From: Bacillota bacterium
Lineage (GTDB): Bacteria; Bacillota; Clostridia; Acetivibrionales; DUMC01
Reading direction: 5' to 3'
DNA length: 36,538 nt
Assembly (NCBI GenBank): GCA_013314855.1
Contig: JABUEW010000033.1
Span: forward strand, 1 to 36,538
Below, piece by piece: positions 8,835-24,271 of this stretch; within the stretch, counting starts at the first letter, position 1; each line of letters opens with the position of its first letter. The translations under genes and the position numbers were made by a program. Below the pieces are notes generated by a model. The model was given only the letters and a program-made list of their open reading frames with translations, did not search any database and was not told the origin of the DNA.

Positions 8835-8914
8835 ATAACTTCACCTCACTTTTAAAATTGGTAATTAACATTTTATATACTTAGTCTCATGTATTTGCAA
8901 ATCAACTAATTTTA

Positions 8915-8943
8915 ATATTACAAAATTGGAAATTGTTTGTCAA
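8915..8943 (-). promoter_or_regulatory. Near-consensus sigma-A promoter for the ECF S gene
   Basis: On the minus strand TTGACA (8938-8943) and TAATAT (8915-8920) are exactly 17 bp apart. Transcription should begin near 8908, giving a leader of roughly 70 nt. A CCAATTTT octamer occurs in the spacer and again just before the ribosome site, which may be an operator pair or chance in A/T-rich DNA. Confidence 0.72.
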
Positions 8944-9968: not shown

Positions 9969-11036
9969 TTAGGGCAATCTCTCATCTACAGGCAGCATGG
10001 GAGAAAACTCTTTGTGAGGTTCATCCTGATACCAGTAAGCTACAGAACTCCAGTCATCACTACGGTCATTGGCATGCCCGTGCTCTATGCTAACCCTTAT
10101 GTTTTTTTGGAAGATGATCGGATCAACAATGTGATAGCGGTATACACATACTTTCCCTTTACCGATATGCGCATCTCTGTCATCAATTTCACACCATGGC
10201 TGGCCACAATACAGGTGAGCTACTTTTTGCATTCCCCAGGCGTGACAAAAGTAATCTTCACTTCCCGTACCATGCATATCGGGGGGCCATACTCTTTCTC
10301 CATCCCGATCTATAAATATCATATCATCACCTTCTCCCCACCAGCCACCCTGGAGGTTATTAATACTCATATTTGTACCTATATAATGACCCCTGCCTTC
10401 CGCCTCAAGAATCAAGTAATTGTTAGTGTCACTCAAGTTAATTCCCTTGTCTTTGCCCTCCGAAGCCTTACAGGGGTTCTCCCTCCTCCACCTGGCATGG
10501 AGATAAACAACATCCTCAGGTAATAAATTATGTTCTTGATAGTCAATGTAAAAATACATTGTTATAGGTATTATCTGTTCATTAATGATTTCTACACGTG
10601 CACTTTTTATAAATGGCATTGGAAGCCAGCAGTTCATAGCAACCCTGGAACTTAATTTCCCTTCTATACCGGTATTGCATGAAGTACTGAAGGCAGCACA
10701 TTGATAAGTATAGGCCCTTGAATGCCCTAGGCCGAAGAAATCTCCTATTGGCGAGTAGATGGAAGGATTTTCTTCATCATCCCAGTAAACTCGTATCAGT
10801 ACTTTTCTTAATGTTAACGGGTCACATACTCTTGGGTCATTTTCACCATATCGGCTCCATATAGTAACCCAGATATGGCTGATAATCCCTGGACCTTTCA
10901 GACTTGCAATTACCTTTGTCTCACCCGGCTGTATACGCCATGCATCATTATTTCCGCCGGTCACATCATAACTGCTTATTCTCTTCGTCCGAAATGATTT
11001 TGCTGTAATTAGTGAATTCCATTGATTGTTATACAT
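9969..11036 (-). CDS. GH172 (DUF2961) glycoside hydrolase
   Basis: A 355-residue protein of the DUF2961 family, classified as GH172. Characterised members act on alpha-D-arabinofuranosides, alpha-D-fructofuranosides or difructose dianhydride. The family jelly-roll fold is marked by LKGPGIISHIWVTIW, WDDEENPSIYSPIGDFFG, GWWGEGDDM and MHGTGSEDYF. The two glutamates expected to be catalytic are those of GWWGEGDD and GTGSEDYF. A C-terminal RYHIVDPIIFQKNIRVSIEHGH segment also fits. No signal peptide is present, so it acts on imported oligosaccharides. The frame could start 10 codons earlier, but GGAGGG sits directly before the ATG at 11034-11036. It is the last gene of the carbohydrate locus, separated by a 357-bp gap that holds a possible internal promoter. 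Confidence 0.88.
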   Translation of the reverse strand: MYNNQWNSLITAKSFRTKRISSYDVTGGNNDAWRIQPGETKVIASLKGPGIISHIWVTIWSRYGENDPRVCDPLTLRKVLIRVYWDDEENPSIYSPIGDFFGLGHSRAYTYQCAAFSTSCNTGIEGKLSSRVAMNCWLPMPFIKSARVEIINEQIIPITMYFYIDYQEHNLLPEDVVYLHARWRRENPCKASEGKDKGINLSDTNNYLILEAEGRGHYIGTNMSINNLQGGWWGEGDDMIFIDRDGERVWPPDMHGTGSEDYFCHAWGMQKVAHLYCGQPWCEIDDRDAHIGKGKVCVYRYHIVDPIIFQKNIRVSIEHGHANDRSDDWSSVAYWYQDEPHKEFSPMLPVDERLP

Positions 11037-11393
11037 AAAAACCCTCCTGTGAATTAATTTATACATGCTTTATTGCTCCGTGGAATATGCCTTGATCCTT
11101 GATCTTTGAAGCCATCTTCATTCTGCTCTTCATTGCCTTATTCTTTACTCTGATTTATCCTACTATTTTGCATAAATATAACATGCCTTGTAAATAGTAT
11201 GTCCTATATTGCTGCATACCATTATACCATAGCACGTATTATCAACTGTACTCTTCTCCCCTTTAATGATATTTATAAAGGTACCAGGGCAGCCTTCCAT
11301 ATGCAACGTCAGTTTTTTACCCGCCATAACCCAACTTACATGTCAGCTATTATCTAAAAAACTGTCCTATTGTCTTTATATTACATATGCTTT
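11037..11393. other. Leader / intergenic region before the GH172 gene
   Basis: A 357-bp gap inside the carbohydrate locus. It holds a possible extended -10 promoter at 11221-11229 on the minus strand and a 54-codon minus-strand frame (11163-11327) without a ribosome site that I do not accept as a gene. GATCAAG is duplicated near 11092-11107. No terminator hairpin was recognised after the GH42-like gene. Confidence 0.35.
11221..11229 (-). promoter_or_regulatory. Possible extended -10 promoter for the GH172 gene
   Basis: On the minus strand TGGTATAAT, i.e. TGn directly before a perfect TATAAT, lies about 185 bp upstream of the GH172 start. The -35 position (ACAGTT, 17 bp upstream) is poor, which is tolerated by extended -10 promoters. 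If used, it would make the last gene separately transcribed, with a leader of about 180 nt. Confidence 0.35.
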
Positions 11394-13532
11394 CTATACC
11401 CTCGCTTTCTTTACCCGTAAAACCTTAACCTCCAAGGGGTTGAAACAGAAATTTGCCTTACCTTCTTTAATATCCCCCGAACAGCCATCCATAAGGTTAA
11501 TATATTTAATATATCTGGAACTAATATGAACAGGGCTTTCATGCATTTCCTCGCTGTTGTTAATTAGAATCAGTATATCATCATCTTTTTCATTTATCAG
11601 AAAACTTCCCTGTATCCTGCTGCTTTCAGTTTTTATACTGTTTTCGACTCCCTGTTCCCTGGCAATATCCAGCACAATTTCCTTCGCTCCTAAAAAAACC
11701 TCTTCTTCATCATTCCTGACAAAATCATCTCCTACACCAAGCTTGGGAGAATAGGATAGTCCGAGATTCAGACCCGAAATAACAGCTTTTCCCTTTCCAA
11801 AGATATTGAAGACAATACATGGTGTACTATCATCCACATAATACCCCAAGGGGGTTCCTGTTGTTACTTTAAAGCATTCTTTGAAATGGCTGTTGCTTAT
11901 TGAATATACCTTGTTTTTATATGTGACCTTCACATTATTACCTTTGGCTGAATAAATATCTTTTTCCAGACAGCCGAATATGCTGTCATAACCACTCCCC
12001 GGGACTTTATCAGCCAGATGGAATGCCACATCGTACGGACAAAAATAGGGGTCAGATAAAATAGTTCCACCGTTTTCTACATAATCTGCCAGCACTTTTC
12101 TTGCATTAGAAGATAACGCAGAGGGCTGTGGGAGGATAACCAGTCTATATTTCTGAACCTTCGAAAGCTCCATAAAATCTTCATGCACGATATCCACAGG
12201 GATATTCTCTTCCCAAAACATTCTGTAGTAACCACTAGTGCAATCTATAGACAAATGGCTATTCCGGTGGTCACACCAATCAACAAGAAACGACCTCATG
12301 CTGAAAACTATAGCAATCTTTGCATCTTCAACCTGGGAACTTAAAAATAATGCATCGTTTTTTTGAATGATATCACAGATTTTCGCCACCATTTCCAGGT
12401 TCTCGGTTGTACCACCATCATAATCGGTTAGGGCAGGCGACCCAAACTCGGGACCATGGGCTTCTTTCCTGTACTGCCAGTATAAAACCCCCTTAACACC
12501 ATGCCTGATAGACTCCCATGTCCATGTAGAAAGCACTTCTGGTTTAACTCTTCCTCTTCTGTTGAGGCCCGAGCCCCTGTCACCGGCACCAAGTTCCGAC
12601 AGCCATATTTCTTTTCCATGGCCAGCACTTCTAGTAGCGTCAGTACTCAATCCCAACATTACATTATGTCTGTAATTATCAGGAAAAGCACTGTATCCCC
12701 ATTTGTCAAATATTGTTGAATTTTTCCAATCATCAAATGCCATCGCCCCAATATTCGGACATGTTATGGTTCCACCGCCCCATGAATGAGCTATGACCGG
12801 TCTGCCATCATACTTTTTTATAATATTGGTCCTTCTTGTTATTTCATCCAAAACATTATCGATTGTAAACAGGCGAAAATCTATATAATCAGTATAACCG
12901 AATCTCCAAGTTGGAGGCCTCACTTCATCCCAGTCATTATGATGTCTTCCCCACGCTTCATTTAATGTATCAATCTCCCCATACTTTCTTTTGAGCCATT
13001 CCCTAAATTTTCTTCTTGTTGCCTGACAGTAGCAGAATATTCCTACGGGATTTTTTGCTAAATCAACCCACTGATGTGGTTCATTCATTGGTTCCCAAAA
13101 AGCTATTTCCTTTCTATTAGACAGGGATTTAACCACACTTGATATGAACCTCTCTTCTATGCCCTGAACTTCTTCATAGTCGTAGCAAAGCCCCGGCCAA
13201 CCGCCGGAAGGCGTGTTGGGTCTTAATGATGGTTCGAAGAAAAAACCGTCCGAATTGACATAATAATACTGGGGATATTTCTTTATCAGCCATTCCGGAG
13301 CCCCATGGAGATGAAAAAGAAGTCCAACCTGCAGCTCATACCTTCCTGCAATATCCAAAAAAGTATGAAGATACTCATAATCAATTACATTCTCTGCTTT
13401 CTCCACGGTATTCCAAACTATCCATGCCCTTACCGTATTGAATCCGCACTTTTTGATCCGGGATAAATCCTTATCCCATTCCTTCTTTGCCGGCGTTTCA
13501 CCTCTTAAATATTGTGTACCAAATATAAACAC
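11394..13532 (-). CDS. GH42-like beta-galactosidase / glycoside hydrolase
   Basis: A 712-residue clan GH-A hydrolase of the GH42 type. The TIM barrel (about 1-370) contains GFNTVRAWIVWNTVE, the acid/base glutamate in WEPMNEPHQW (Glu151) and the probable nucleophile in IWLSELGAGDRG (Glu313). A beta-galactosidase trimerisation-like, glutamine-amidotransferase-like fold follows (about 385-600, with KYRLVILPQPSALSSNA), then a C-terminal beta domain. No signal peptide is present, so it is intracellular. The frame opens at GTG 13547, but GAGGG is spaced eight bases from the GTG at 13530-13532, which I take as the start. It lies 40 bp after the LplB-type permease, so the two are probably co-transcribed. 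The actual sugar (beta-galactoside or alpha-L-arabinoside) is not determined by sequence. Confidence 0.85.
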   Translation of the reverse strand: MFIFGTQYLRGETPAKKEWDKDLSRIKKCGFNTVRAWIVWNTVEKAENVIDYEYLHTFLDIAGRYELQVGLLFHLHGAPEWLIKKYPQYYYVNSDGFFFEPSLRPNTPSGGWPGLCYDYEEVQGIEERFISSVVKSLSNRKEIAFWEPMNEPHQWVDLAKNPVGIFCYCQATRRKFREWLKRKYGEIDTLNEAWGRHHNDWDEVRPPTWRFGYTDYIDFRLFTIDNVLDEITRRTNIIKKYDGRPVIAHSWGGGTITCPNIGAMAFDDWKNSTIFDKWGYSAFPDNYRHNVMLGLSTDATRSAGHGKEIWLSELGAGDRGSGLNRRGRVKPEVLSTWTWESIRHGVKGVLYWQYRKEAHGPEFGSPALTDYDGGTTENLEMVAKICDIIQKNDALFLSSQVEDAKIAIVFSMRSFLVDWCDHRNSHLSIDCTSGYYRMFWEENIPVDIVHEDFMELSKVQKYRLVILPQPSALSSNARKVLADYVENGGTILSDPYFCPYDVAFHLADKVPGSGYDSIFGCLEKDIYSAKGNNVKVTYKNKVYSISNSHFKECFKVTTGTPLGYYVDDSTPCIVFNIFGKGKAVISGLNLGLSYSPKLGVGDDFVRNDEEEVFLGAKEIVLDIAREQGVENSIKTESSRIQGSFLINEKDDDILILINNSEEMHESPVHISSRYIKYINLMDGCSGDIKEGKANFCFNPLEVKVLRVKKARV

Positions 13533-13572
13533 TTTTATTTCCCTCACATTATTAAATAAGCTAGTGATTAAA

Positions 13573-14493
13573 CTACCACAAACTTATTTCAGCGAATTTT
13601 CTGGCAATAGCATTTACTATAACTAGTAGTATACAATTTATTACTGAGTTAAACATTCCTACTGCACTTGAAAAGCCATACTTTGCTTGTAGAAGACCTA
13701 CTTTATAAACATAAGTAGATATTACTTCTGAAGCATCTAAGTTAAGAGGTGTTTGCAACAAAAAGACTTTTTCAAAACCAACACTCATAATCCCCCCCAT
13801 ACTAAGTATCAGTATAATTGTTGCCGTTGGAATTAGAACAGGAATGTTTATATGAATAATTCTCTGCAGTCTTGTTGCTCCATCTATAATAGCCGCTTCA
13901 TGCTGTTCGTGATCTACAGAAGATAATGTTGCAAAGTATATAACAGACCCAAATCCGGTTCCTTGCCATACTCCTGACCAAACATATATGCTTTTAAAAT
14001 ATCCAGGTTTATTAATAAAATCTACAGGTTCAAATCCTAATAATTCAATAAATTTATTAATAATTCCATACTGCGGATTAAGATAAATGAGAACCATACC
14101 AACAAGAACAACAGTGGAAATAAAATGTGGAGCATATGTTACAGTCTGTACAAATTTTCTATACTTTACATTTCTTACTTCATTAAGCAGTAATGCGAGG
14201 ATTATCGGGAAAGGAAATCCTGCCACTAAGGAGTATATCGAAATACCTACAGTATTCTTAATTAATGTCCAAAAATAATAAGATTCGAAAAATAGATTTA
14301 AATTCTTTAACCCAACCCAAGGACTTCCCCATATACCTTTTGTAGCAACAAAATCTTTAAATGCAAGTTGAACACCATACATAGGTGCATAATTAAAAAT
14401 CGCAAAATAAAGCGTTGCAGGTAGTATAAAAAGGTATAATTCATACCTTTGAAGTATTTTTTTTAATGTCTTTTTCAATGTATTTGTGCTCAT
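13573..14493 (-). CDS. Carbohydrate ABC transporter permease, LplB family
   Basis: A 306-residue inner-membrane permease with six predicted helices. The N-terminus YELYLFILPATLYFAIFNYAPMYGVQLAF is the LplB/YtcP-system hallmark. The cytoplasmic EAA loop that docks on the ATPase is seen as EHEAAIIDGATRLQRIIHINIPVLIPT. Such permeases import complex oligosaccharides (e.g. rhamnogalacturonan fragments) with a YtcP-type partner. That partner lies 4 kb upstream in the same locus, separated by the binding-protein and regulator genes, which is an unusual order. GGGGAGG precedes the ATG. A copy of the 41-bp element lies at 14558-14598, so the gene probably begins its own transcript with the two hydrolases. 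Confidence 0.92.
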   Translation of the reverse strand: MSTNTLKKTLKKILQRYELYLFILPATLYFAIFNYAPMYGVQLAFKDFVATKGIWGSPWVGLKNLNLFFESYYFWTLIKNTVGISIYSLVAGFPFPIILALLLNEVRNVKYRKFVQTVTYAPHFISTVVLVGMVLIYLNPQYGIINKFIELLGFEPVDFINKPGYFKSIYVWSGVWQGTGFGSVIYFATLSSVDHEQHEAAIIDGATRLQRIIHINIPVLIPTATIILILSMGGIMSVGFEKVFLLQTPLNLDASEVISTYVYKVGLLQAKYGFSSAVGMFNSVINCILLVIVNAIARKFAEISLW

Positions 14494-14538: not shown

Positions 14539-14598
14539 ATTATCAAGTAAAATTAAGAATTTGTAAATATGTCATAATTCAATTAATTTGCTAAAACC
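14539..14598 (-). promoter_or_regulatory. 41-bp conserved element (copy A) and promoter before the LplB-type permease
   Basis: Minus strand 14598 to 14558 begins GGTTTTAGCAAAT and ends ACATATTTACAAATT. It is identical at 34 of 41 positions to the copy at 19709-19749 before the other permease. TTTACA at its downstream end can serve as -35, with GATAAT (14539-14544) as -10 at 17-bp spacing. A site overlapping -35 fits class II activation by an AraC-type protein, and the YesN-like regulator gene lies immediately upstream. Confidence 0.6.
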
Positions 14599-14613
14599 TG
14601 CTTTTACAATATT

Positions 14614-16854
14614 TTAAGCTCTATTTAGTTCTCTATATCTGCCGGGAGTAACACCTTCCAAATAACTAAATGTCCTTATAAAGCTTGAAGGATCAGTATA
14701 CCCGCTTAACTCTACAATTTCCTTAACTGTTTTATCTGTTTCTACCAAGAGTTTTTTTGCATAATCGATTCTTAATCTTTTAATATAATCTGCAAATCTA
14801 TAACCGGTATTTTGATAGAAAAACTTACTTAAATATTTTTCTGTAAGGCCAAATTCTTCTGCAATCAATTCAAGGCTTATTAGCGGATTTTTAAAGTTTT
14901 CATTTATGTATTTAACCAATTCAACTTTTAGTTTTTTATTTTTATTACTCTTATATTCATTAAAATAACCACATATCTTACCAATGCTAGACGTAAGGCC
15001 ATTTTCTAATTCTTCAATGGTTTCATATTCCGAAATATTCTCTATTTCTTCTTTATATCCTGAAATATTATACTCATTAATTATTCTTATAACAGTATTA
15101 ATAATATCATAACCTATAGATTTACCTATACCTATAGGAACATTACGGCTTTTTATGTTTTTAAATATACTATTCATACATTCTATTGCAGCTTTTGCAT
15201 CACCCTGCTTTATAAAATTTGAGAAATTCATCATTTCTTCCATTGGATACCAGAAAACATTATTAGATTCTTTAACACAATCAACATAGAAGATTACATT
15301 TCCATAACCGGTAATTAACTTGTAATCCAAAGCATACTGTGCTTCTTCAAATGAAACCGATACATATTCCAATGAATTAGTAATACTTCCTATTCCAATA
15401 TTAGTTTTTATTTTTAATTGCATTTTTAGAGTATGCTGAATTTTTTCAGATATATACTTAACTTTGTCTTTTTCAAGCTCATCTCTATTTCCATTCAGGA
15501 TAATAACTCTATCCCCTCTTAATAATTCAATTATATAATAATTCACTTTAGGATTATATTCAGAAAGCATCATTTTAATAATATTTGAAACTCTACCTGA
15601 TACAATTTCACTTCTTGAATAATTGAAAAAGGATATAATCATAACTTGAAAATAATTATAATCAAAACTAATTCCACATGAATTCATAAGACTTTCGGCT
15701 AGAGCAGAATTTACCATTTCTCCCTTAATGAGCATCAATAGTACTTGTTCTTTCATAAATGGTAATTGCTCATTAAGTTTTGCCAGAAGTTTTTTATTTT
15801 TGTCTATAGTGTCTTTTATTAAATTATCAATATATTCCATTTCATTAATTCGTTTTTGATTTATTCTTCTATCTGCTACATCAAAAAAGTTATCTATAAT
15901 TTTCTTTATAGGTTTATAGTTCCTAGACGCCATAATTGAAGCTATAAATATACCAAATAAAATAATAAATACAAATATAAGGTAAATATGTAGGTTTGTC
16001 TTCCACCTTTCTCCTATATTTTTGTTAGAATATACTATAACATAATCTAGTTCCGCCAACTCCGATTTAACATTAATAACAAAATTATTTTTATCATTAT
16101 ATACGCTGTCATTTCCTCTCCATATCATATCTAATACACCACTATCAATTAAACCCTCAGATCCGTTAAGATAAACAATATCTTTATTCTTATTAAAGAT
16201 ATAAAAACAAAAATCATTCTCATTTTTCAAACCTAATACTTTATTAATTCTATCTTGTCTAAGAACAAAAGTCATTGTACCATATGGATTATTTTGGCCA
16301 ATAGGTAATGAATATACAATAACAATCAAAGGCGTTTTAATTTGGTTATCATCTGAAGACTGGTTTATCCTTTTTATTAAAATACCTTTTGTATTGCTCA
16401 TAAGCTCCATAAAATAAGCCTTCTCACTCTCTGAAAACGAGAAGTCCGAGCCAAACATTGTATAAATTGACATAACACCCCTAGAACAGTAAACCCTATT
16501 ATCATCTTTAAAGTATAAATATATTTCATTTATAATACTGCTTTCCGCAATATACCTACTTAAAGTATTTGAAGCATTTTTAGACTGGTAGTCATTTTGT
16601 TTTATTACAGACATACTCATTAGTGCATCGAAAGCTATTCTTAATGCAATACTATTTATTATTTTATACTCGCTTTCAAATGTATTTATTAAATGGTTAG
16701 CATTAATTTTCCTGTAATTTGTAATTTCTTCCCAGTAGCTTTTGTTTAAATTATTATATAAAAGACCACCAAGTATTATAATAGGAATTGCCAAGATACT
16801 TATATAAGAAAACAAATATTTATAAAAAAGAGGTGATTTTGTATTTTTAAACAT
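14614..16854 (-). CDS. Membrane-anchored AraC-type sensor/regulator (YesN/YtdP-like)
   Basis: A 746-residue one-component regulator. It has a first membrane helix at about 11-30, an extracytoplasmic sensing region of about 255 residues (Cache-like), a second helix at about 288-310 and then a cytoplasmic linker with the GGDEF-like degenerate domain typical of such regulators. The C-terminal AraC double HTH (about 645-740) includes ISLELIAEEFGLTEKYLSKFF and VKEIVELSGYTDPSSFIRTFSYLEG, ending TPGRYRE. Such proteins sense an extracellular sugar, or a sugar-loaded binding protein, and directly activate transporter and hydrolase genes. AAGGTGG precedes the ATG. It sits between the binding-protein and LplB genes; its probable targets are the 41-bp elements at 14558 and 19709. 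Confidence 0.9.
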   Translation of the reverse strand: MFKNTKSPLFYKYLFSYISILAIPIIILGGLLYNNLNKSYWEEITNYRKINANHLINTFESEYKIINSIALRIAFDALMSMSVIKQNDYQSKNASNTLSRYIAESSIINEIYLYFKDDNRVYCSRGVMSIYTMFGSDFSFSESEKAYFMELMSNTKGILIKRINQSSDDNQIKTPLIVIVYSLPIGQNNPYGTMTFVLRQDRINKVLGLKNENDFCFYIFNKNKDIVYLNGSEGLIDSGVLDMIWRGNDSVYNDKNNFVINVKSELAELDYVIVYSNKNIGERWKTNLHIYLIFVFIILFGIFIASIMASRNYKPIKKIIDNFFDVADRRINQKRINEMEYIDNLIKDTIDKNKKLLAKLNEQLPFMKEQVLLMLIKGEMVNSALAESLMNSCGISFDYNYFQVMIISFFNYSRSEIVSGRVSNIIKMMLSEYNPKVNYYIIELLRGDRVIILNGNRDELEKDKVKYISEKIQHTLKMQLKIKTNIGIGSITNSLEYVSVSFEEAQYALDYKLITGYGNVIFYVDCVKESNNVFWYPMEEMMNFSNFIKQGDAKAAIECMNSIFKNIKSRNVPIGIGKSIGYDIINTVIRIINEYNISGYKEEIENISEYETIEELENGLTSSIGKICGYFNEYKSNKNKKLKVELVKYINENFKNPLISLELIAEEFGLTEKYLSKFFYQNTGYRFADYIKRLRIDYAKKLLVETDKTVKEIVELSGYTDPSSFIRTFSYLEGVTPGRYRELNRA

Positions 16855-16973
16855 AATACCACCTTTTGAAAAATGTTACAATAAGAATCGCTTATTAAAC
16901 TGCTACATATTATTTTATCATTATTTAAAATATTCTTCAATAAATTTAGAAGATTTCCATACATTAACAACTT

Positions 16974-17025
16974 TGTATTACAGCATATGGAAAAATATTT
17001 TTTATTCTCCATATGCTGTAATACT
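16974..17025 (-). terminator. Hairpin between the binding-protein and regulator genes
   Basis: A perfect 16-bp inverted repeat, GTATTACAGCATATGG (16975-16990) and its complement (17009-17024), with an A/T-rich 18-base loop. It starts eight bases after the solute-binding-protein stop. No T-tract follows on the minus strand, so it is more likely a partial terminator or a 3' stabilising structure. Such a structure would let the binding protein be made in excess over the downstream regulator, a known pattern in ABC operons. Confidence 0.6.
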
Positions 17026-17031
17026 TAAGGT

Positions 17032-18612
17032 TTACCTGTTATATCTATCAAATGCCGCCTGTTGTATTTCAATGAATTTATTAAGTTTCAGTTGGTTATA
17101 TAGTACATTCACGTAGTTATCCCAATTATCAAACGATTCTTCCCCAACTACAAATTTAGCCTGCATTTCACTTACATATTTGTGAATGTCTGTTCCTAAT
17201 ATACTTAATTGATCAGCTTCTTCCTTGGTATATCTAATATTTAAAGGGAAAAGCCTGCTTTCATCTTGGTATGGATATGAATATAATCTATTTCCATCTG
17301 CAACCCATTTCATGTAATCACCGGCAGGAGCTGCCATAAGTACTCTTACACCAATACCACCACCATATGCTTTTCTCTTTAAAAATGTTAACCATTCCGA
17401 AAGATCACCTTCAGGTTTAAATAAATATTTATATGCGGTTTTTGACGCATCAACATAATCCCAATCAACACCTTGCTGACCTACCCAAAATGAAACTCCG
17501 GAAAACCCTTCAACCGCATTATCAGGATCTCTATGAAAGATGTCGGCCCATTTTACAGATTCAACAGGATATTTATTATTTCTTGTTATTGCAAAATGAC
17601 CTGTAGTATAACGGTCAATAGCTGTAGCAATTTTTTTATTATTAAATGCCGATGTTAATGGCGGCAATACCTGGTATTGTGTCCAGTCTGCCTGACCTGG
17701 ATGAGCTAGTACACCACAAAGATTTGTTTTTGTTTTTGCAATATATTCCTCGCCTGTCTGAGAGATAAATGTATTATCAAGTAGCTTTTCCTTGTAAAGC
17801 TTTCTCAAAAACATTAAATACTGTTTGTATCCTTCTGAAGCTCTTGTAAAGACTACCTTGCCATCTTTTATTGATAGTACTCTGCCATCACCCCTGCCAT
17901 ATGTTTCACCAAATGCTGGCATTAACCACCCATTCATTCTTTCAAATCCATTGTCTGTCATCGGAATAGCATTTGCATCATATTTACTGAATGCAACAAG
18001 CACATTATAAAAATCCTCAACAGTTTCAGGAACTTTCAGGTTTAAATTATCAAGCCATTTTTTATTAATATGCATCTTCCAGTCCCCTTGTGTCATGGTA
18101 TATGTAACCATTCCTAAAGCGTAAATATTTCCATCTATTGCTGTAACAGCCTTTTTAAGCAAAGGATATTTTTCGAATGCCTTTTTAATGTTTGGTCCGT
18201 AATCGTCTATATATTCATTAATTTTAAGAAATACCCCTTGAGGACCATAAGTATCTTCATCAGATTTAGAAATACCGTCTAGGAAAATATCAGGCAAATC
18301 TCCTGTTGCAAGTGCCAGGTTTTTCTTTTCTGCCCATCCCTCAGATGCAGTTTCAAATTCAAAATGGATATTAGTAATTTTCTCAAGATTTTTAAATACT
18401 GTGTATTCCTCCCATGGACCTTGATATGCATTGCTTGGTGCCATAACTTTAAGTGTAATCGGCTTTGATGATACAAGAGCTTCCTCACGTTTGATTTCCT
18501 CTGTAGGCTTAGCATTCGATTCCCCAGGCAAACTCTCGCCTGATTTTTTACAGCCTACAGCAAAAACTATCAATAGACTTAATACTGTGATAATACTAAT
18601 CACTTTTCGCAT
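17032..18612 (-). CDS. Extracellular solute-binding lipoprotein (LplA-like)
   Basis: A 526-residue sugar-binding lipoprotein of the large LplA/YtcQ class (about 500-550 residues), which deliver oligosaccharides to LplB/YtcP permeases. The signal peptide MRKVISIITV...IVFAVGC has its lipid-modified cysteine at residue 21, followed by a Ser/Gly/Glu-rich linker. Family features include WAEKKNLALATGDLPDIF and DGNIYALGM. The frame extends 38 codons further upstream and overlaps the permease gene by an ATGA, but GGAGGA precedes the ATG at 18610-18612, and only this start gives a proper signal peptide. A hairpin at 16974-17025 follows its stop. Confidence 0.92.
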   Translation of the reverse strand: MRKVISIITVLSLLIVFAVGCKKSGESLPGESNAKPTEEIKREEALVSSKPITLKVMAPSNAYQGPWEEYTVFKNLEKITNIHFEFETASEGWAEKKNLALATGDLPDIFLDGISKSDEDTYGPQGVFLKINEYIDDYGPNIKKAFEKYPLLKKAVTAIDGNIYALGMVTYTMTQGDWKMHINKKWLDNLNLKVPETVEDFYNVLVAFSKYDANAIPMTDNGFERMNGWLMPAFGETYGRGDGRVLSIKDGKVVFTRASEGYKQYLMFLRKLYKEKLLDNTFISQTGEEYIAKTKTNLCGVLAHPGQADWTQYQVLPPLTSAFNNKKIATAIDRYTTGHFAITRNNKYPVESVKWADIFHRDPDNAVEGFSGVSFWVGQQGVDWDYVDASKTAYKYLFKPEGDLSEWLTFLKRKAYGGGIGVRVLMAAPAGDYMKWVADGNRLYSYPYQDESRLFPLNIRYTKEEADQLSILGTDIHKYVSEMQAKFVVGEESFDNWDNYVNVLYNQLKLNKFIEIQQAAFDRYNR

Positions 18613-18722
18613 TTTAACTCCTCCTTTAAAATAAAAATATATTTGTAAAATCCAGTAGCTTACTACTGAATTAATTACCAAATATTTTAGGTTATCATAA
18701 CGACGTAATTTCTTCTTGCGCT

Positions 18723-19613
18723 TCATCCTTTCAAAGCTCCAATCATAATACCCTTGACAAAGTATTTTTGCAAAAACGGATATATAATGATAACGGGAAG
18801 TGCAGCTACAATAATCACTGCATACTTTATTAATGCACTAATTTCAATTTGTTTGGTAATTGCTTCAATTTGTCCCATATCCAACATTTGATTATTAATC
18901 TCATTAAGAATAAGAATTTTCCTCAAAATCAGTTGTAATGGAAACAAACTTTCTTTAGAAATATATATAAGTGCATTAAACCAGCTATTCCATTGACCTA
19001 CACCATAATACAATGCCATTACTGCAATTATAGGTTTTGATAACGGTAAAATAATTGTTGTAAATAAGCCCGTATAAGAACATCCATCTATAGTTGCTGC
19101 TTCCTTAATACTACTTGGTATACTATTTTGATAGTAAGTTCTTACAATAACTATGTACCAAAAACCTAAAGCTCCCGGTATAATCTGTGCAAATGGAGTA
19201 TTTCTTAGTCCAAGACCTTTTACTATTAAATATGTCGGAATCAAACCGCCGGAGAAATACATAGTCACGGTAAAAAGCAAAACAAATAACTTTTTCCCAA
19301 TAAAATCCTGATGTGATAATGAATAAGCTGCAGTTAATGTCAAAAATAAACTAATGATAGTACCGGATATTGTATAGAATATAGTATTTCTGTATCCTAC
19401 CCATAATTGGCTGTAACTGAATACACGTTTATATCCTTCAAAAGTAATCCCCCTTGGAATAATCCATACTTTCCCCCTGGATACTAAGAACGGGTCACTT
19501 ATTGATGCAATAACGATATAAATAAGTGGATATAATACAATAATAAAAAAGAGAGTTACTAGACTTATGCTTACTATATCAAAAATGATATCATCTTTAC
19601 TTTTATAAACCAA
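18723..19613 (-). CDS. Carbohydrate ABC transporter permease, YtcP/LplC family
   Basis: A 296-residue permease with six helices, the partner of the LplB-type protein. Recognisable are the N-terminal FFIIVLYPLIYIVIASISDP segment, the RGKVWIIPRGITFEGYKRVF loop and the EAA loop SSIKEAATIDGCSYTGLFTTIILPLSKPI. It ends with the typical QKYFVKGIMIGALKG. Translation starts with TTG at 19611-19613, preceded by AGGAGGAG. It is the first gene of the carbohydrate locus and carries the second copy of the 41-bp element upstream. No ATP-binding subunit is encoded in the locus, which is normal for this class. Confidence 0.92.
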   Translation of the reverse strand: MVYKSKDDIIFDIVSISLVTLFFIIVLYPLIYIVIASISDPFLVSRGKVWIIPRGITFEGYKRVFSYSQLWVGYRNTIFYTISGTIISLFLTLTAAYSLSHQDFIGKKLFVLLFTVTMYFSGGLIPTYLIVKGLGLRNTPFAQIIPGALGFWYIVIVRTYYQNSIPSSIKEAATIDGCSYTGLFTTIILPLSKPIIAVMALYYGVGQWNSWFNALIYISKESLFPLQLILRKILILNEINNQMLDMGQIEAITKQIEISALIKYAVIIVAALPVIIIYPFLQKYFVKGIMIGALKG

Positions 19614-19911
19614 TTATTTCTCCTCCTGTCTGACCAATCAACTTGAGTTGCCCGGTTTTATTAAAGCAGAAAATGAAATTTGTATTATAAGAGTAATTTA
19701 ATTTTGAAAATATGTAAATATGTTATAAGTTAAGTGATTTGCCAAAACCCGAAAAACCGATATGTCAGAGTCATGATTTCGTCATTCCTGGCAAAGAATG
19801 CATTGAGTATACTTTAACTTTAATGGTTTAATTGCAGCAGGATACTATTTTTTTATAGGTTTTTTAGCTTGTCAACTTTAAAGAGCTAATCAGCCGTTTC
19901 TACGTCCATGT
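19614..19911. other. Promoter region of the carbohydrate locus
   Basis: A 298-bp gap between the btu operon end and the first permease gene. The permease-proximal half holds the 41-bp element and a TATAAT box. The rest, about 19750-19911, contains no gene. The only candidate for btu operon termination is a weak TTAGCT...AGCTAA pair around 19868-19893, followed by A-rich rather than T-rich sequence. Confidence 0.4.
19684..19749 (-). promoter_or_regulatory. 41-bp conserved element (copy B) and promoter before the YtcP-type permease
   Basis: Minus strand 19749 to 19709 begins GGTTTTGGCAAAT and ends ACATATTTACATATT, with 34/41 matches to the element at 14558-14598. A perfect -10 TATAAT lies at 19684-19689, 23 bp after the TTTACA at the end of the element, so a different -35 (such as ATTTTC, 16 bp upstream of the -10) or activator-dependent contact would be needed. 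The shared block includes the 11-mer ACATATTTACA. Confidence 0.58.
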
Positions 19912-24026: not shown

Positions 24027-24067
24027 GTTTCACACCCCCTATCGACCGTAGAGCTTCTTTGTGAAAC
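24027..24067 (-). promoter_or_regulatory. Stem GTTTCACA / TGTGAAAC directly after the aptamer
   Basis: An 8-bp perfect inverted repeat, arms 24060-24067 and 24027-24034 on the minus strand, stacks immediately on the 3' side of riboswitch stem P1 with a 25-base loop. It may be part of the switching structure that competes with P1 or links it to the terminator at 23957-23991. Confidence 0.4.
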
Positions 24068-24238
24068 AATACAGGCAGGTCTTCTGGCTTAAGCATCATC
24101 GTCCTTTTAACCTTCCCATCCCATAAACCCAGGACAGTGGTTCACTAAAAGGACTCCTCTTTTACAGCGGCGGGACCGCGCGGGATTTTCACCCGCTTCC
24201 CTTTTCATTAATCCTACTTAAAGGATTAAACCTGTATT
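24068..24238 (-). ncRNA. Cobalamin riboswitch (B12 element)
   Basis: Read on the minus strand, the leader has the closing stem P1 AATACAGG (24231-24238) with CCTGTATT (24068-24075). It also has the conserved block GGGAAGCGGGTGAAAATCCC and GCGGTCCCGCCGCTGTAA, and the B12 box AGCCAGAAGACCTGCC (24074-24089). Order and spacing fit the AdoCbl riboswitch class. It controls cobO-btuF-btuC-btuD, presumably repressing uptake when adenosylcobalamin is abundant. A terminator downstream indicates transcriptional control. Confidence 0.96.
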
Positions 24239-24241
24239 GGT

Positions 24242-24271
24242 ATATGAGTCCTACAAGTATTCAATTGTCAA
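24242..24271 (-). promoter_or_regulatory. Promoter of the cobalamin operon
   Basis: TTGACA (24266-24271) and TCATAT (24242-24247) on the minus strand are 18 bp apart. This places the transcript start near the 5' end of the riboswitch P1 stem, which supports the assignment even though the -10 is imperfect. Confidence 0.5.

Follow-up and report, generated by a model that had tools for sequence, protein, structure and literature searches.

The 36,538-nt stretch of DNA analysed here (contig JABUEW010000033.1 of the Bacillota bacterium assembly GCA_013314855.1, hereafter the window) carries two minus-strand copies of a 41-bp element, each upstream of a permease gene in a carbohydrate locus. We consider it probable that the element is an AraC/XylS-type operator of tandem half-sites, with the helix-turn-helix (HTH) domain of the sensor encoded between the copies as its most likely ligand. 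The order on the minus strand is copy 2, YtcP-type permease, binding protein, AraC-type sensor, copy 1, LplB-type permease, GH42 hydrolase and DUF2961 protein. The two copies are real and local, and as probable operators they would represent a known kind of site, with an ordinary mechanism and an unusual split-importer arrangement.

The two copies are identical in 34 of the 41 columns of an ungapped alignment, and the shared columns include GGTTTT, GCAAAT and the 11-mer ACATATTTACA. This likeness, which the original prediction was built on, is borne out and well above chance: when the intergenic spacers (120 and 298 bp) are compared without gaps over 41 columns, the highest match is again 34, while 1000 dinucleotide-preserving shuffles of the spacer pair gave a mean of 23.5 and a maximum of 28, with none reaching 34. 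With a repeat finder, the matching pair comes out longer, 51 nt at 78%, and no clear similarity was seen by eye between the flanks past the repeat. Both copies read RCAWAT followed by RCAWATTTACA at a period of 19, that is, two direct half-sites about 20 bp apart and upstream of a promoter, as in AraC-type tandem operators.

The copies are also confined to this locus. Across the 252 contigs (4.43 Mb) of G000, the genome to which the window belongs, their 34-position consensus with up to 3 mismatches matches only at the two window sites, and a sequence model made from the two copies recovers them with E-values of 8e-9 and 4e-8, the next match standing at 5.6. The exact form RCAWAT-N13-RCAWATTTACA is found across genomes G000, G001 and G002 only at the two window copies, and the exact N14 form only in C49, upstream of an LplB paralog. 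This confinement, established by the scan that had been proposed for the element, argues for a local cognate site; a reading as a global factor's site or as a scattered repeat was rejected, with the two window sites being the only strong copies in G000. That the element is a functionless remnant of a recent chance or mobile duplication is highly improbable. Two copies at 83% identity within flanks of no clear similarity would suit such an origin, but each copy stands a short way upstream of a permease start, G000 contains no further strong copies, and the near paralogs have related sequence at the equivalent place. The 11-mer by itself, on the other hand, is not distinctive: it occurs at 13 places in G000 versus 5 for the reversed control. 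Nine of these lie inside open reading frames (ORFs) of at least 100 aa in a simple ORF list, three precede a permease gene (the two window copies and C49), and the last, in C76, is outside such ORFs but heads no gene of that size. Within the window, the model's next-best match, at 8891-8927, is weak (E 0.077), and none of the 36 window matches with E up to 10 falls between the GH42 and DUF2961 genes as a third copy before the latter.

The candidate ligand is a 746-aa protein ending in an AraC-type double HTH, the arrangement that defines the AraC/XylS family. Pfam at E ≤ 1e-5 returns HTH_18 (E 1.3e-20, residues 664-742) and HTH_AraC only, with no receiver (Response_reg) domain found at this threshold, and the profile search against the PDB finds AraC-type domains (best 1.7e-26). 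The structure model, based on an 8-row alignment, is of moderate quality (mean predicted local distance difference test 77.6, predicted template modelling score 0.39). It contains long helices at residues 7-75 and 278-330, and the hydrophobic stretches of both, judged by eye, suggest two membrane spans. The sensor part of the model resembles the Cache-type domains of TlpQ (E 2e-6) and TlpC (3e-5), with target template modelling (TM) scores of 0.5-0.6, if one sets aside two integrative models of whole receptors that head the list of structure matches; the C-terminal part resembles the DNA-binding domain of a YesN protein (3lsg, target TM 0.94). A sequence profile also matches the chemoreceptor domain 6mni at residues 179-291 (profile positions; 1.8e-5). 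The earlier description of a YesN-like AraC-type sensor is therefore apt for the HTH domain and not for the rest of the protein, in which no receiver was found and for which the model suggests a double-Cache-like sensor. It is most likely a one-component membrane sensor rather than a YesN response regulator.

Binding by a regulator encoded elsewhere, either a global factor or a paralogous sensor, with the neighbouring sensor acting at other sites, appears quite unlikely. Cross-talk is conceivable in a genome with at least three other full-length regulators of the same type and 33 LplB-type permease genes (window included), and the C49 site is close in sequence; a global factor is nevertheless opposed by the lack of further strong copies in G000, and the neighbouring sensor gene ends 15 bp before copy 1.

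No close orthologs of the sensor were found: 4 of 60 genomes, its own included, matched at E ≤ 1e-60, with relatives 26-33% identical among up to 18 candidates per genome, and a contig scan that reached close relatives only gave four distant or partial matches. Footprinting was therefore done on paralogs. The pattern RCAWAT, period 18-21, RCAWATTTACA, 16-18 bp, TATAAT was scored in 22 loci including the window, against 200 shuffles of each upstream region; it was written after viewing C49, C129, C1, C67 and C53, and period 18 was added after C67. Among the six nearest LplB paralogs (63-69% identical), five (C129, C49, C89, C67, C1) beat all 200 shuffles with half-sites and -10 box. In C49, for instance, GCATAT upstream of LplB is followed 20 bp later by ACATATTTACA, with GATAAT 17 bp after TTTACA. 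Regulators of the same type adjoin the operon in C129, C49, C53, C1 and C67; the sensor gene is upstream of LplB in C53 and C1 (G000) and in C129 and C67 (G002), and downstream of the binding-protein gene in C49. Of the farther loci, where the permease is 55-60% identical, L059, L060 and L072 beat all shuffles and L067 all but one. L059 and L072 owe this to the -10 box, since half-sites alone were equalled in 32 and 26 of 200 shuffles, and the L060 site is 370 bp upstream of the permease. Across the 16 loci unseen when the pattern was designed, five reach 1 or fewer of 200 shuffles with the -10 box, and three (C89, L060, L067) reach 4 or fewer on half-sites alone.

The original proposal that the neighbouring sensor is the ligand is thus supported by the confinement of strong copies to the locus and by the related arrangement in five of the six nearest paralogs. 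We infer binding, activation and inducer along the following lines. The outer domain of the sensor would detect a sugar or a loaded binding protein; two HTH units would then occupy the half-sites, which are spaced by about 19 bp, beside or over the -35 region, and would help RNA polymerase to start transcription. A single sensor could in this way switch on both units, namely the YtcP-type permease with the binding protein and the LplB-type permease with GH42.

The similarity of the copies might instead be that of a shared core promoter (e.g., TTRGCA-17-CATATT, or TTTACA as the -35 part), alike by common descent and bound by no regulator. Copy 1 does have TTTACA-17-GATAAT, TTGGCA-17-CATATT in copy 2 is a promoter-like match at 9 of 12 positions, and AT-rich promoters look alike. 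We regard this explanation as unlikely, however, because the 34/41 identity reaches far past two hexamers, TTTACA is retained in copy 2 although the best -10 box is 23 bp off, paralogs retain an RCAWAT 18-20 bp upstream that a core promoter does not need, and C49 and C129 have no TTRGCA. A leader RNA or riboswitch was rejected as well, as each element precedes its -10 box and the one Rfam family found in the window at gathering thresholds is elsewhere.

Several observations weigh against the operator reading. C49, C129, C1, C67 and C53 do not count as independent, since the pattern was designed on them. In C53 no site is seen (172 of 200 shuffles are as good), although a regulator is present and the permease is 67% identical. 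At 11 of the 15 farther loci, 13 or more of the 200 shuffles equal the real score. When 30 G000 LplB loci were scored earlier, with periods 19-21 and no shuffle control, only the window, C49, C89 and C1 came out at 3 or less, the other 26 loci lying above this, and among 8 other loci with a same-strand upstream AraC-type gene only C1 scores 3 or less. The half-site period varies (18, 19, 20), and the half-sites in the window resemble each other weakly (CANAT plus a few bases). The C89 site overlaps the permease ORF where this is extended at its 5′ end, and the flanking DNA examined at that locus showed no sensor gene. The pattern with one mismatch gives 16 further places in G000, G001 and G002, including C1, versus 8 for the reversed control, so single-mismatch matches mean little. 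Promoter-like matches in the region number 50 versus 54.6 in shuffles; a -10 box does follow each copy as originally described, but in such an AT-rich region, with promoter-like matches at shuffle level, these boxes are weak evidence. Finally, the -10 box of copy 2 stands 6 bp, or about half a helix turn, further from TTTACA than that of copy 1 (23 versus 17 bp). The copies therefore need not share one activation geometry, and the two units, proposed to be coordinately switched, need not be switched equally. With TTTTCA located 15 bp before the TATAAT of copy 2, either this alternative -35 is used there or activation is different. The predicted motif belongs to the nearest subfamily and not to all such systems.

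A possible link between regulator and site was noticed in these paralogs. DLTYF in the second HTH (C1, C67) pairs with ACWAATTTACA, D[PV][AS][SN]F (window, C49, C129) pairs with ACATATTT, and the C53 regulator has DVSSF, yet no recognisable site. This is suggestive that HTH residues may track operator sequence, a post hoc lead from five loci. As a separate observation, locus L026 (G002:C129, about 11990-12090) has an extra GCATAG...GCAAAA pair ahead of the GCATAT...ACATAT pair, upstream of the LplB paralog, and this cassette may carry two successive tandem operators.

In an AraC araI1/I2-type class II site, two direct half-sites lie about two helix turns apart at period 21, and the promoter-proximal one touches the -35 region. 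The window likewise has two direct half-sites about two helix turns apart, the promoter-proximal one of which would touch the -35 region, but at period 19 rather than 21, with copy 2 placed 6 bp further from its -10 box and with another half-site sequence. Membrane AraC regulators of the Bacillus YesS/YtdP type adjoin LplB/YtcP/LipO transporters, and the window similarly pairs a predicted membrane sensor and AraC HTH with an LplB/YtcP-type transporter, a likeness of general layout. Among the open-access papers listed for membrane AraC sensors, for YesS, or for LplB/YtcP with AraC, none was usable. In Caldicellulosiruptor bescii, each of the four single-component AraC-family regulators is described as having tandem-repeat sites with large spacers; these precede promoter elements that are linked to mapped starts, and they are interpreted as sites of activation (PMC8579813). 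As a class, local regulons with AraC-type tandem sites have thus been published already (PMC8579813), and several of the C. bescii regulators described there are local to a transporter locus. The window agrees in its tandem half-sites with a large spacer upstream of predicted promoters of sugar-use operons, and differs in having two copies for two separated transporter halves. AraC-family rhamnose regulators of Bacillales, Bacteroides and Enterococcus are described as having direct repeats with 21-bp periodicity (PMC3870299).

Table 1. Features of the carbohydrate locus in window coordinates
Feature	Position	Strand	Remark
DUF2961 protein, presumably family GH172	9969..11066	-	327 bp downstream of GH42 gene end
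GH42 family glycoside hydrolase	11394..13547	-	
LplB/UgpA-type permease (BPD_transp_1)	13573..14493	-	
-10-like box GATAAT	14539..14544	-	17 bp downstream of the copy 1 TTTACA
Operator copy 1 (41 bp), predicted	14558..14598	-	upstream of LplB-type permease gene
Copy 1 half-sites	GCAAAT 14591-14586; ACATATTTACA 14572-14562	-	period 19
746-aa regulator	14614..16854	-	predicted membrane-anchored double-Cache-like sensor with C-terminal AraC HTH (residues 664-742)
LipO-like sugar-binding lipoprotein	17032..18726	-	named by position near LplB/YtcP paralogs and lipobox-like stretch (by eye)
YtcP/MalG-type permease	18723..19613	-	other half of transporter pair; weak NCBIfam matches below cut-off
-10-like box TATAAT (perfect)	19684..19689	-	23 bp downstream of the copy 2 TTTACA
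Operator copy 2 (41 bp), predicted	19709..19749	-	upstream of YtcP-type permease gene
Copy 2 half-sites	GCAAAT 19742-19737; ACATATTTACA 19723-19713	-	period 19

The YtcP/MalG-type permease (Table 1) has no Pfam match at E ≤ 1e-5, and the LipO-like protein has no Pfam or NCBIfam match; the listed start of the LipO-like gene is probably too early. The proposed unit of a permease with two hydrolases would include GH42, whereas membership of the DUF2961 gene is uncertain because of the gap that separates it from GH42. Between the binding-protein and sensor genes (16975-17024) is a strong 20-nt inverted repeat with a 10-nt loop, 95% complementary. It lacks a clear T-run and may mark the 3′ end of a transcript or serve as a hairpin for processing. 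Further along, a Cobalamin riboswitch (Rfam RF00174, 126 bits) at 24057-24250 on the minus strand precedes same-strand genes for a binding protein, a FecCD permease and an ATPase (23317-19912), and would fit corrinoid uptake.

The separation of the LplB and YtcP halves, each with its own copy of the element, is unusual. The 33 LplB matches in G000 were collected at E ≤ 1e-60, and several adjoin AraC-type sensors. A YtcP homolog follows LplB on the same strand at 28 of the 30 G000 loci examined, the exceptions being the window and L056, and at all 15 further loci in related genomes. L056 (G000:C40) is a second LplB locus for which no YtcP homolog was found directly downstream. We infer, as a possible but rather doubtful history, descent of the two element copies from a sensor-transporter cassette that was duplicated in tandem and then lost complementary parts, which would leave the permease halves in separate transcripts joined only by the two inherited operator copies; the 6-bp shift of copy 2 may then alter the strength or order of activation.

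The system is not of a new kind. It provides a concrete, testable candidate operator through which a predicted membrane AraC-type sugar sensor may act. With so many LplB-type permease genes in this genome, how similar transport systems stay apart is a real question, and the split importer with its doubled operator offers a natural test of operator spacing.

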